Part shown: positions 1,238 through 5,451 of the stretch, piece after piece
Layout of the letters: every line of letters begins with the position of its first letter
Numbering within the stretch: position 1 is the stretch's first letter
Virus record (IMG/VR): IMGVR_UViG_3300035698_006585
Coordinates: 1 to 24,652 of that record
Reading direction: 5' to 3' (one strand)
From: a virus
Length of the DNA stretch: 24,652 bases
Translations under genes and position numbers: made by a program
Notes under the pieces: model-generated
The model's database searches: none
What the model was told of the DNA's origin: nothing
Seen by the model: only the letters and a program-made list of their open reading frames with translations

Positions 1238-2083
1238 TTATGGTTTGTATTTCGTGATTGGGGTGAAGTCGGCTGTTGGGTATGGTTTTACCTGATCCGC
1301 ACCAGCGCTATCGCTATATATTTTTTCGAAGGCCTGCGTGTTTGGATTGTAGTATTTGTTCCATCCCTCGCTTTGATAAATCAGCTCGTACATTGCTTCC
1401 CATGTTAGCGTCCCGTCTGTGCGCCTAGTTGGCCTCGGCTTTGGTGGGGTAAACAGCAACGTTTCGGCCGCAAATGTTTTGTTGAATTGAACTGATTTAA
1501 CTGGTTTTTTGTTGACTTTCCCGATAAGCGTAAATGTAGATGACGGTAGTTTGTCAGGTACCTCGTGAAGGGTAATCTGCCACGCAAGTTGAATCATTAC
1601 CTTTTGTGGTGCGCTTACATCATTCAATACAATTCCATCAGACCAGTACAGGCTGTCACTTGAGAGAGATATCATCTTAGCGCTTGGGATAAGGTTTTCC
1701 GTCCTATACGGGCGTACTGAGCTACCCGCTGAACCCACCTGTGCGTTGTATGCTGGAACGATATATTTGAGTACAACAATCGAATAATCGTACTTTGCTT
1801 TTTTTGACGTATCTTTTTTGACTTTCCCGAACGGCTCTGGATCAGCGGCAACACATATTGCGTCATCGAAATGTGGATACTTGTTCGGATAATATGAGAT
1901 TCCGTCAATCTTTCCGCCTAGAAACCTTTGCGCTAACGTCAACCTATCAGACCACCTTACTTTGATGCGACGGGTGGCCGAGAACCCCTCAGCAGTGAGG
2001 CTTTCTTTAGGGGAACCGGCCAGCTCTTCGTAATCAATTGGCGGAGGTATATTGATGACTGTTGTTGTGGTTGTAGTGCTCAC
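1238..2083 (-). CDS. Hypothetical tail-region structural protein, 281 aa
   Basis: 281-aa protein directly downstream of the tape measure gene. The start codon is GTG and overlaps the tape measure stop as TAGTG (2081-2085), a clear case of stop-start coupling. The N-terminus has a Thr run followed by INIPPPIDYEELAG. The rest is beta-rich with aromatic residues (for example QSEGWNKYYNP near the C-terminus) and a basic Pro-rich linker (PPKPRPTRR). No membrane segment is seen. In siphovirus late operons the gene after the tape measure commonly encodes a distal tail or tail tip component; that is the best guess but no family signature is recognised. Confidence 0.65.
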   Translation of the reverse strand: MSTTTTTTVINIPPPIDYEELAGSPKESLTAEGFSATRRIKVRWSDRLTLAQRFLGGKIDGISYYPNKYPHFDDAICVAADPEPFGKVKKDTSKKAKYDYSIVVLKYIVPAYNAQVGSAGSSVRPYRTENLIPSAKMISLSSDSLYWSDGIVLNDVSAPQKVMIQLAWQITLHEVPDKLPSSTFTLIGKVNKKPVKSVQFNKTFAAETLLFTPPKPRPTRRTDGTLTWEAMYELIYQSEGWNKYYNPNTQAFEKIYSDSAGADQVKPYPTADFTPITKYKP

Positions 2084-4353
2084 TATCGCACCCCACTTAC
2101 TGGTGCTTCAGGAGGCTTTGGTATGAGCCCCTGCTCAGTGAGGAACGTATTGATGCCGTCCATTAAGGTGTTGCTTTTCTGCTGTTCAAGTAGTTGTTCT
2201 TTTTGCACAACAAGTTGCTGTTGATCTACGGTTGCCTGTTCGGTTGTTATCGTGGACAGTCGTTGCCATATATCAGTCAGGCCGATGAACTCAGCACGCG
2301 CGGAAATCTGTTGCGTCTTGGGGGGCACGATAGGATCATCGTCGCCGTCTTTTTTGCCCATAGCTTTTAGCTTTTCGCGAAGTTTTTCAATCTGGCGATC
2401 AACCCCGGCCTGTATGGTATCTGCAAATTCAAATCCAAACGCCTTTTTTGCTTCTTTTCCAATTGAGTCAAGGTCTTTTTCTATTTGACTCTTGTCCCGA
2501 GAGATAATTCCGGCAATGTCGAATTTAGGCATTTGAAAGCCTTCTGGCCCGTCGCCCTGGGCGGCATCTGCATTAGCCAATACGTCTTCAATTGATTTAA
2601 CGCCTTCCATGATGGGAGTTGGGTCGAATTCTATAAGTTTTCCCTTGAATACCCCTTTAATGACATCCCAGCGAGCTTTGATATTTTCCACTGTATTGCC
2701 AAGTATTGTACCAACGTTCCCAGACCATGTTTCAATCATTGCTAGAGCCAGACCAAACGAGTTTGAACCTTCTTCAACTATCACCCTGTACACTTCTTCG
2801 CCGAACTCCCACAAGAGTATCCCTGTTTTACCTAAAATGTTATTAATATCAAGAAAGAACCCAATTACTTTAGACGTTGCGCCAGCGAACGCCGCCGCAA
2901 TAGCAACCTCAAAATTATTCATTGCAGTGACGCCTATTGCCGCTATCAACGTAAGCCACTCGAACGCGCCGCCGAGCTTGTCTTTGATTGTGTCTCCTAG
3001 GCTTCCCATTTTTTCTTTCATCGTATCGCCTTTGGATGCACCAACGGCAAGCGCCGCCGATACCAGAATCAGCCCGCCAACTAGTAACCCGATTACCGCA
3101 GTTGCTGGAGATATAGCGAGGAAAGCCGCGCCCAACGCGAACACAGCGCCAGCAACTAGCCCAAAGGCGGCGGACAGTCCGAGCAGTAGCCCTGTCCATT
3201 GTACGGTTTGTGAGATCAGTTCAGTGTTTGCGTCAATCCATTTTACAGAGTCCCCACCAATCTTTGCCAGTGCTTCGCCTGTTGCGCGGATCGCAGGAAT
3301 GAAGATTGTTCCCAACGAAATCGCCATGCCTTCTGCAACAGATTTCAGCAGTGTCAGCGAACCGAACAGTGTGTTTAACTGTACGTCTGCAATGCGTTTT
3401 GCGGTGCCGCCTGAGTTCTCCAAGCTGGTTTGGAACTTGCGCATTGATTCCCCGCCCTCATCCATCATCGCTGCCAGTCCTGAAACTGCTCGTGCGCCTG
3501 CAACCTGCGATAATGTAGCTAACCGCTGTTCTGAAGTCATGCTTGAGGTGGCTTTGTTGAGGTCGTCTATCACGTCCGCCATCGGCCTTGATTTGCCCAT
3601 GGCGTCGGCGGTTGTAACTCCAAGGTCGTCCAATGCTTTCTTCGCCGCTGGAACGCTGCCGGACAGCCTGAGCAGGATCATTCTGAGTGATGTGCCAGCC
3701 ATGCCGCCTTGGATACCTGCGTTAGACATCACCTGTATTGCCGCTGTAATTTCTTCAATGCTACGCCCGGTTGCTTTACCAACCGGCCCAACAAATTTCA
3801 TCGCCTCGCCCAACTGTATCAGGTCTGTGTTTGAGGTGGTGAACGCTTTAGCAAGCACGTCAACTGTTCCGGCAAGCTCGCTCGTGCTGAGTCCCATGCC
3901 TGCCATGATTTTCGCTACAATATCAGCCGCTTGCCCTAGGTCCAGTTGACCAGCAGCCGCAAGGTCTAAGGTGGAAGGCATTGCGCCGATAATCTTGTTT
4001 GCGTCGAATCCAGCCAGTGCAAATGCTGACATCGCGTCCGCTGATTGTTTCGCGCTGAATACCGTTGTTCGCCCAAGCTCTTTGGCGGTGTCTTCCAGTG
4101 ATATGAACTCGGATTCAGTAGCTCCTGATAGAGCGTTGACACGAGCCATTGACTGTTCAAAACCACCAGCGGAAGCCGTCACAGCACCCAAAGCCAGCGC
4201 GCCAGCCGCGAGAATACCCGCAGCCGCTTTGCCGAATTTTGTGAACCCGCCGCCTAGACGTTTCATGTTCGCTGATGCTTTATTAACACCAGAACTGAAC
4301 ATTTTATCGTCAAGCGTAAGATCGACAAATGCTTCGCCGCCTTTGAACGCCAT
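2083..4353 (-). CDS. Tail tape measure protein, TP901 type
   Basis: 756-aa tape measure protein, which sets tail length and is threaded through the tail tube. Residues of about 60-320 fit the TP901 core: GFEQSMARVNALSGATESEF, then KELGRTTVFSAKQSADAM, GMAGTSLRMILLRLSG and later Gly-rich turns. Hydrophobic segments at about 45-63 and 385-440 (runs of Ala, Gly, Leu, Val) fit the membrane-active parts of tape measures. The C-terminal third is helical with Gln/Glu-rich stretches. An SD-like GAGGCGG precedes ATG 4353, which begins 1 base after the stop of the frameshifted chaperone extension, the conserved chaperone-then-tape-measure order. At the usual 0.15 nm per residue a tail near 110 nm is expected (inference). 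Confidence 0.93.
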   Translation of the reverse strand: MAFKGGEAFVDLTLDDKMFSSGVNKASANMKRLGGGFTKFGKAAAGILAAGALALGAVTASAGGFEQSMARVNALSGATESEFISLEDTAKELGRTTVFSAKQSADAMSAFALAGFDANKIIGAMPSTLDLAAAGQLDLGQAADIVAKIMAGMGLSTSELAGTVDVLAKAFTTSNTDLIQLGEAMKFVGPVGKATGRSIEEITAAIQVMSNAGIQGGMAGTSLRMILLRLSGSVPAAKKALDDLGVTTADAMGKSRPMADVIDDLNKATSSMTSEQRLATLSQVAGARAVSGLAAMMDEGGESMRKFQTSLENSGGTAKRIADVQLNTLFGSLTLLKSVAEGMAISLGTIFIPAIRATGEALAKIGGDSVKWIDANTELISQTVQWTGLLLGLSAAFGLVAGAVFALGAAFLAISPATAVIGLLVGGLILVSAALAVGASKGDTMKEKMGSLGDTIKDKLGGAFEWLTLIAAIGVTAMNNFEVAIAAAFAGATSKVIGFFLDINNILGKTGILLWEFGEEVYRVIVEEGSNSFGLALAMIETWSGNVGTILGNTVENIKARWDVIKGVFKGKLIEFDPTPIMEGVKSIEDVLANADAAQGDGPEGFQMPKFDIAGIISRDKSQIEKDLDSIGKEAKKAFGFEFADTIQAGVDRQIEKLREKLKAMGKKDGDDDPIVPPKTQQISARAEFIGLTDIWQRLSTITTEQATVDQQQLVVQKEQLLEQQKSNTLMDGINTFLTEQGLIPKPPEAPVSGVR

Positions 4354-4354
4354 T

Positions 4355-4555
4355 TTATTCCGCCTCTTGCTTGTTTTTCTGGAACTCTGCCAACTGTTCT
4401 GGACTCGTGAATTTTATCGTCTTCTGTTTCTCCTGCCCCATGTAAATGTATACCTGTGGCAAGGTCATGTCAGCAACCTCGTTCGGCCCCCAGTGGTACG
4501 CCTCTGCAAGGTTGCGACAGATTTCACGGAGACTTATTCCGCCCCCGGTTCCACG
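4355..4555 (-). CDS. Frameshift extension of tail assembly chaperone (T part of a G-T fusion)
   Basis: Reading frame -1 relative to the chaperone at 4534-5058. After a slip on GGGAAAC (4555-4561) the next codon is CGT, read from the C at 4555, and the frame stays open for 66 codons to TAA at 4355-4357, just before the tape measure ATG. The fused product would be 234 aa (168 plus 66). The extension contains SLREICRNLAEAYHW then a GPNEVADMTLPQVYIYMGQE segment, helical and of the type seen in lambda T-like extensions. It lacks its own plausible start with SD. In the same frame a TGA lies only a few codons upstream of the slip site, so the segment is accessible essentially only by frameshift. Confidence 0.82.
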   Translation of the reverse strand, partial: RGTGGGISLREICRNLAEAYHWGPNEVADMTLPQVYIYMGQEKQKTIKFTSPEQLAEFQKNKQEAE

Positions 4556-5058
4556 TTTCCCGGGTCACCAGCTTCAATCAGCTTTTCGAGCTTTTCTGGG
4601 TTGGTCATTACGTCACGGTCGAGGATCCCGGAGATAATCATTACCTCAGTTGACAACTCGCCAACCGCGCCAGCATTGAACGGCATCCGTTCCTCGGCCT
4701 CGTCGATGGTCATGCCTGGTTCGCCTTTGCGCATGGACAGCCAGATGATACGCATGACGCCTTCCGAAGACGACAGGAACGCCCTGCCCTGTGGAGTCAT
4801 CACCGATATTCTCGCGGCTGAATCGTATGCCTCTGCCCACTGCATCCGTTTCTCTGACTGGCTCAGAGGGGGCTGTACTGACTCGGCTCTGTACTGGTTT
4901 TCTTCTGCGATACTTCGGCGGGTTGCCCTGAGCAATTCCTCACGTCCGTACTGGTCAATTTTGCCGAAATCGCGGAACGTCAACGGGTGAAGAACGTACT
5001 CCACGCCGTCTATTTCCTTGGTTGTCGGTGTTTTGGTTATTGCGGCTATATCATTCAT
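4534..5058 (-). CDS. Tail assembly chaperone, zero-frame product (lambda G analogue)
   Basis: 174-aa protein between the tail tube candidate and the tape measure gene, the position of lambda G. Such proteins coat the tape measure during tail assembly and do not stay in the virion. The N-terminus (GVEYVLHPLTFRDFGKIDQY) resembles phage tail assembly chaperones that begin with a beta hairpin and helices. It ends DPGNVEPGAE. The codons Pro-Gly-Asn near the end form a textbook -1 slippery heptamer that extends the protein by 66 residues. The start at 5058 has GGGAG 12 bases upstream; an overlapping out-of-frame ATG at 5064 is not productive. Confidence 0.85.
   Translation of the reverse strand: MNDIAAITKTPTTKEIDGVEYVLHPLTFRDFGKIDQYGREELLRATRRSIAEENQYRAESVQPPLSQSEKRMQWAEAYDSAARISVMTPQGRAFLSSSEGVMRIIWLSMRKGEPGMTIDEAEERMPFNAGAVGELSTEVMIISGILDRDVMTNPEKLEKLIEAGDPGNVEPGAE
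4555..4561 (-). promoter_or_regulatory. Programmed -1 ribosomal frameshift site GGGAAAC
   Basis: On the minus strand the zero-frame codons are CCG GGA AAC, so the heptamer G-GGA-AAC has the X-XXY-YYZ form required for tandem -1 slippage (lambda uses GGGAAAG at the same gene position). A second slip-prone string, CCCGGGA, overlaps it and also fits the pattern. The zero-frame stop lies 19 bases downstream. No strong downstream hairpin was found by eye. Confidence 0.8.
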
Positions 5059-5082: not shown

Positions 5083-5451
5083 TTAGGTCAATGCCCCGTT
5101 GGCTTCAACGCTCACTGTAACGCCCATGAGTTCGCCGCTTTCGACGTTGCATTCGTACGCAATTTCTGCCACGCGAGCTGTGCCACTGAGTTTGTTGCTT
5201 GAATCAAGGTTAAAAATCCATGCGTAGCTGTCGCCTTTGGTGATTGACGGAACCGCGCCGTCATTGAGATACAGTTCAACTGTGCCCTTCCAGTCAGAAT
5301 TGCCTTTCTCGCGTTTTGTGTTTCCGTCCGTGTCGCTGGAGACATACGGCAGTAATTCTGTGCTGTCAGTTACGGACCATTTTTTCACGTGGGCAATGTT
5401 TGTGCCCGCCTTTGATACGCTACCGCCGTTACCTGATTTTGGAACGCCCAT
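5083..5451 (-). CDS. Putative major tail (tube) protein
   Basis: 122-aa beta-rich protein. MGVPKSGNGGSVSKAG is followed by IAHVKKWSVTDSTEL and a central SDWKGTVELYLNDG strand pair, a pattern typical of siphovirus tail tube proteins (Trp after a Lys pair near the N-terminus, then beta-sandwich strands). It precedes the chaperone and tape measure genes in transcription order, the standard place for the tube subunit. A strong GAGGAG lies before ATG 5451. The protein is short for a tube subunit (usually about 150-250 aa), so it may be a minimal version without an Ig-like C-terminal domain. The assignment rests on order and general fold pattern. Confidence 0.68.
   Translation of the reverse strand: MGVPKSGNGGSVSKAGTNIAHVKKWSVTDSTELLPYVSSDTDGNTKREKGNSDWKGTVELYLNDGAVPSITKGDSYAWIFNLDSSNKLSGTARVAEIAYECNVESGELMGVTVSVEANGALT

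Follow-up and report, generated by a model that had tools for sequence, protein, structure and literature searches.

Conserved slip site and −1-frame extension point to a programmed tail-chaperone frameshift in an IMG/VR virus

Does the gene that precedes the tape measure gene in virus record IMGVR_UViG_3300035698_006585 (IMG/VR) give rise to one tail protein or to two? The stretch of DNA analysed, here called the window, is this record of 24,652 bases, from an uncultured phage, and all coordinates are on its minus strand. According to the original prediction, a tail chaperone is joined to a T-like extension in the −1 frame by ribosomes that slip at a GGGAAAC heptamer. Slippage of this kind in tail chaperone genes is well known from phage lambda and from most long-tailed phages. 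The features that bear on the question are as follows.

5083–5451, minus strand: 122-aa gene, candidate major tail (tube) protein, from its position only
4534–5058, minus strand: zero-frame gene for a G-like tail assembly chaperone of 174 aa (open reading frame, homologues, profile match)
4565–4567, minus strand: −1-frame TGA closing the −1 frame just 5' of the slip site (sequence)
4558–4564, minus strand: overlapping heptamer CCCGGGA, in register, missing from relatives L002 and L003
4555–4561, minus strand: slip heptamer G_GGA_AAC, in register, with the same spacing in L002 and L003
4528–4546, minus strand: candidate hairpin 8 bases past the heptamer, its loop containing the zero-frame stop (weak evidence)
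4358–4561, minus strand: −1-frame T/E'-like extension, 68 codons from the heptamer (conservation, dN/dS, hhalign to P2 E')
4355–4357, minus strand: −1-frame stop TAA, one base short of the tape measure ATG
2083–4353, minus strand: tape measure protein, 756 aa (PF10145, E 8.5e-48; best PHROG tape-measure family, E 5.7e-99)

The zero-frame gene starts at ATG 5058 and stops at TAA 4536–4534. As predicted, GGGAAAC lies at 4561–4555 in the exact X_XXY_YYZ register (G GGA AAC, Gly-Asn), and 6 codons separate it from the zero-frame stop. The TGA at 4567–4565, which abuts CCC GGG AAA, ends the preceding −1 reading; from there the −1 frame is open up to TAA 4357–4355, that is, for 66 codons past GGG AAA or 68 from the heptamer. 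A single base (4354) separates this stop from the tape measure ATG at 4353, and both the length and the end point of the frame are those originally described. The prediction had further held that the −1 frame has a TGA upstream and no usable start of its own. The TGA is in place. An ATG does occur in the frame, at 4468 (codon 32 of the extension), yet it cannot start the extension because it sits within the conserved domain.

The tape measure assignment is secure. For the 122-aa gene, Pfam and PHROGs gave no match, and its candidacy as the major tail (tube) protein follows from the usual gene order. Neither the 174-aa protein nor the extension has a significant match in Pfam or PHROGs; against PF06528 (Phage_P2_GpE) the extension scores 12.9 bits, under the Pfam gathering cut-off of 23. 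AlphaFold models of the G-like protein were unusable when built from three sequences (pLDDT 45) and reached a pLDDT of 83 with eight. With the G model, a Foldseek search of BFVD reached significance for three phage proteins, none of them characterized (best E 8.9e-5); entries bearing the name tail protein or tail assembly appeared only at E above 0.1. Searched against the PDB with Foldseek, the G model had no match at E below 1, and a PDB sequence search returned chance matches to stathmin only.

Comparison with relatives is more informative. Only two close ones were found, L002 and L003, which are IMG/VR contigs from two different metagenomes. Over the aligned protein, their G-like proteins are 78% (L002) and 62% (L003) identical to that of the window, and their extensions 69% and 46%. 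Both keep GGGAAAC, its distance to the stop and the −1 extension, and the conservation of the heptamer among homologues, which had been proposed as a check, is thus confirmed. In the overlap, the residues GKR..GGG of the −1 reading are invariant among the window, L002 and L003, and the zero-frame residues vary (NVEPGAE, NVEPGAV and NAPAAEA). Between the window and L002, codons 9–41 of the extension give a dN of 0.109 and a dS of 1.95, and past the zero-frame stop there are 5, 1 and 16 substitutions at the three successive −1-frame codon positions; for L003, dN is 0.35 and dS is saturated. The −1 extension is therefore under strong purifying selection as a protein. All three sequences use the same Gly and Asn codons at the heptamer, which taken alone is not remarkable, because 32 of the 92 invariant degenerate codons of the G-like gene are identical among them. 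None of the relatives detected encodes the extension as a stand-alone gene with a start codon of its own.

A search with the tape measure N-terminus extended the comparison to 21 loci; two of these, L004 and L005, are the L002 and L003 contigs again. G/T-like pairs were recognised by eye, and the reading of L014 gave no clear result. Upstream of the tape measure gene, seven farther loci carry such a pair: L006, L009, L012 (with a near-copy, L010), L015, L016, L023 and L024. In all seven, the second frame is −1 and an in-register heptamer lies within the overlap; it is GGGAAAC in L012 and its near-copy and AAAAAAC in the other six. Overlapping GGGAAAA and AAACCCG are additionally present in L006, and AAACCCG in L024. 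No such pair was seen within the stretch read in L007, L008, L011, L013 and others. By hhalign, the window group matches L006, L012, L024 and L018 at E 2e-8 with the profile of the G-like protein and at E 3e-9 with that of the T-like extension. The pairs of L009, L015, L016 and L023 share the layout but seem to belong to another family. In these four, a different-looking chaperone pair is accompanied by AAAAAAC and, downstream of it, by predicted stems that are stable. The L009 pair belongs to PHROGs 18210 and 18850, of unknown function, the sole informative result from Pfam and PHROGs among the distant relatives. A tblastn search of 50,697 phage records with the G-like protein and the extension found no relative, and two extension matches at E 0.6 look like chance. 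A genome scan with the G alignment gave nothing; with the tape measure alignment, it returned one weak locus in a Myxococcus MAG that has no clear G/T pair.

Three loci show other arrangements in this region. At L018:1587–2693 there are tandem G-like copies, 28% identical (E 2e-13), the second of which is fused in frame to a T-like domain. At L003:4495–6753 the −1 extension reads without a stop into the tape measure ATG (...NRQRITI-MAFQGG...), and a slip there would yield one G-T-tape-measure protein, unless the missing stop is a sequence error, which is possible. It is conceivable, if rather doubtful, that gene duplication replaces the frameshift in L018 and that this locus and the L003 read-through together reflect a fluid frame arrangement before the tape measure gene. 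In Microcystis phage Mae-JY30 (L031:1877–2239), an open −1 frame runs through an unannotated gap before the tape measure gene, and CCCTTTG stands six codons ahead of the stop of the gene that precedes the gap; this is possibly an unannotated GT.

How often would a heptamer fall into the overlap by accident? The minus-strand genes of the window contain 16 in-register X_XXY_YYZ heptamers in 6,299 codons, 11 of them with AAA or TTT as YYY. At the corresponding rate of about 1.7 to 2.5 per 1,000 codons, the chance of one in the 9-codon overlap is about 1.6–2.3%. By itself this figure is modest, and conservation of the site together with that of the −1-frame protein makes the case convincing. Multiplying the chances across loci gives no valid probability, because the loci are related.

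A chance of some 2% is not negligible, and the heptamer might be a coincidence beside a −1 frame that is open by accident. The selection on that frame as a protein and the retention of the heptamer in a relative with only 62% protein identity make this extremely unlikely. A single in-frame gene split by a sequencing or assembly error might be suspected, given that the window comes from assembled data and that the distant relative L018 has both domains in one frame; the same −1 offset nevertheless occurs at the same place in two contigs of two different metagenomes, the seven more distant loci show a −1 offset as well, and an error of this kind is hardly credible.

Alternatively, translation might begin anew, at ATG 4468 or by re-initiation at the stop of the zero frame, and give the extension as a small protein of its own. 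In the window, ATG 4468 has GAGG eight bases upstream, but this sequence is GAAG in L002 and is also lost in L003. Moreover, conservation of the −1 frame starts at the slip site, 31 codons ahead of this ATG, and the core of the domain (LAEAYHWGPNEVADMT) lies mostly upstream of it. As to re-initiation, the −1 codon over the stop is ATA, which is no usual start and is not kept in L003. We regard a separate protein as very improbable. Finally, the frame could be shifted by RNA polymerase rather than by the ribosome. Transcriptional slippage normally needs a long homopolymer run, which GGGAAAC lacks (3 G, 3 A), and we give this explanation next to no weight, even though some bacterial frame changes are transcriptional (reviewed in PMC5009743).

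The best explanation of the locus, and one of which we are highly confident, is a programmed −1 frameshift that yields G and G-T products. It is supported because the heptamer, the frame offset and the protein constraint on the −1 extension are all conserved and none of the relatives found has a stand-alone extension, and slippage remains the natural explanation that it was originally taken to be. We infer slippage, its efficiency and its role in assembly as follows. The majority of ribosomes would make the 174-aa G-like chaperone and terminate at 4536–4534. A minority, with Gly-tRNA and Asn-tRNA on GGA AAC, would slip back one base, re-pair on GGG AAA and read 66 further −1 codons, so that the chaperone would reach about 234 aa and end in a T/E'-like tail. 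Tandem slippage once the two codons have been decoded would give the predicted junction, Gly-Asn-Arg; a slip that precedes the reading of the A-site codon would give Gly-Lys-Arg instead. In E. coli, A_AAA_AAC is reported to be less shifty than A_AAA_AAG (PMC5009743). By analogy with lambda, G would coat the tape measure protein, recruitment of the tail-tube protein would fall to the T-like domain, and the ratio of G to G-T would matter for tail assembly.

Two further elements around the slip site were considered. CCCGGGA, which overlaps GGGAAAC and had been put forward as a stacked slip site, is indeed in register, but L002 and L003 both read TCGGGAAAC at this position. We rejected it as a slip site, as both close relatives lack it; not being conserved there, it is probably a chance occurrence. 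The hairpin downstream of the heptamer is predicted at the same place in the window and L002 and in another register in L003. Over 40 nt, folding z values against shuffles are −0.85 (window), −0.3 (L002) and −0.78 (L003), with −4.5 for L002 at 60 nt. Neither in the window nor in L003 is there a structure 3' of the slip site more stable than in shuffles; with stems in different registers in these two and a stability no greater than that of shuffles, a conserved stimulatory hairpin is unsupported. Each of the six AAAAAAC loci has z below −3 in at least one of the three lengths tried. Downstream stimulatory structures are frequent, not universal, in tail-chaperone frameshifts.

These results annotate a chaperone pair that family libraries missed and add one more lineage with a conserved tail frameshift, and the alignments could seed a profile for this unannotated G/T family. 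They leave the understanding of the frameshift mechanism unchanged.

The frameshift itself is of an already known kind, because GGGAAAC has been predicted or reported as the tail-chaperone slip site in Burkholderia phage KL1 (gp18/gp19; PMC3483164), phage Colossus (PMC3556154) and archaeal virus HCTV-1 (PMC5009743), which were compared with the window by heptamer. In KL1, unlike in the window, a further gene intervenes before the tape measure gene (PMC3483164). Vibrio phage phi 2 (KJ545483) has an annotated G and a joined GT (gpGT analog) with a −1 offset upstream of a related tape measure gene; it differs in its slip site, TTTTTTG, and in its G-like protein, which has 92 aa and is annotated as Mu gp41-like.

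The closest sequence resemblance of the extension is to E' of phage P2 (AF063097), whose annotated −1 frameshift product gpE+E' shares the layout of gene, −1 extension and tape measure. P2 E' aligns to the extension with an hhalign E of 3.6e-5, a probability of 71% and 24% identity over 33 columns, more weakly (E 0.0017) when the seven-sequence extension alignment is used, and both contain a motif like (Y/F)HWxPxE....M(T/S)L. P2 differs in its slip site (TTTTTTG), its contractile tail and its gpE, which has 91 aa and was compared with the 174-aa protein by layout. Tail assembly in lambda depends crucially on the ratio of gpG to gpGT, both of which bind the tape measure protein, and T is the part that binds the major tail subunit (PMC5009743); the window proteins presumably act in the same way. 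The layout is also the same, with GGGAAAG 5 codons before the stop in lambda and GGGAAAC 6 codons before it in the window, but the lambda T extension, at about 145 codons, is more than twice as long. A sequence relation of lambda G to the window G (hhalign E 0.3) and of lambda T to the extension (E 0.02 over 11 columns) is undetectable. The proposal that the lambda G/GT design is conserved here thus holds for layout and mechanism; in sequence, the extension resembles P2 E' and not lambda T. The window locus very probably belongs to the known class of −1 frameshifts represented by lambda G/GT and P2 E/E+E'.
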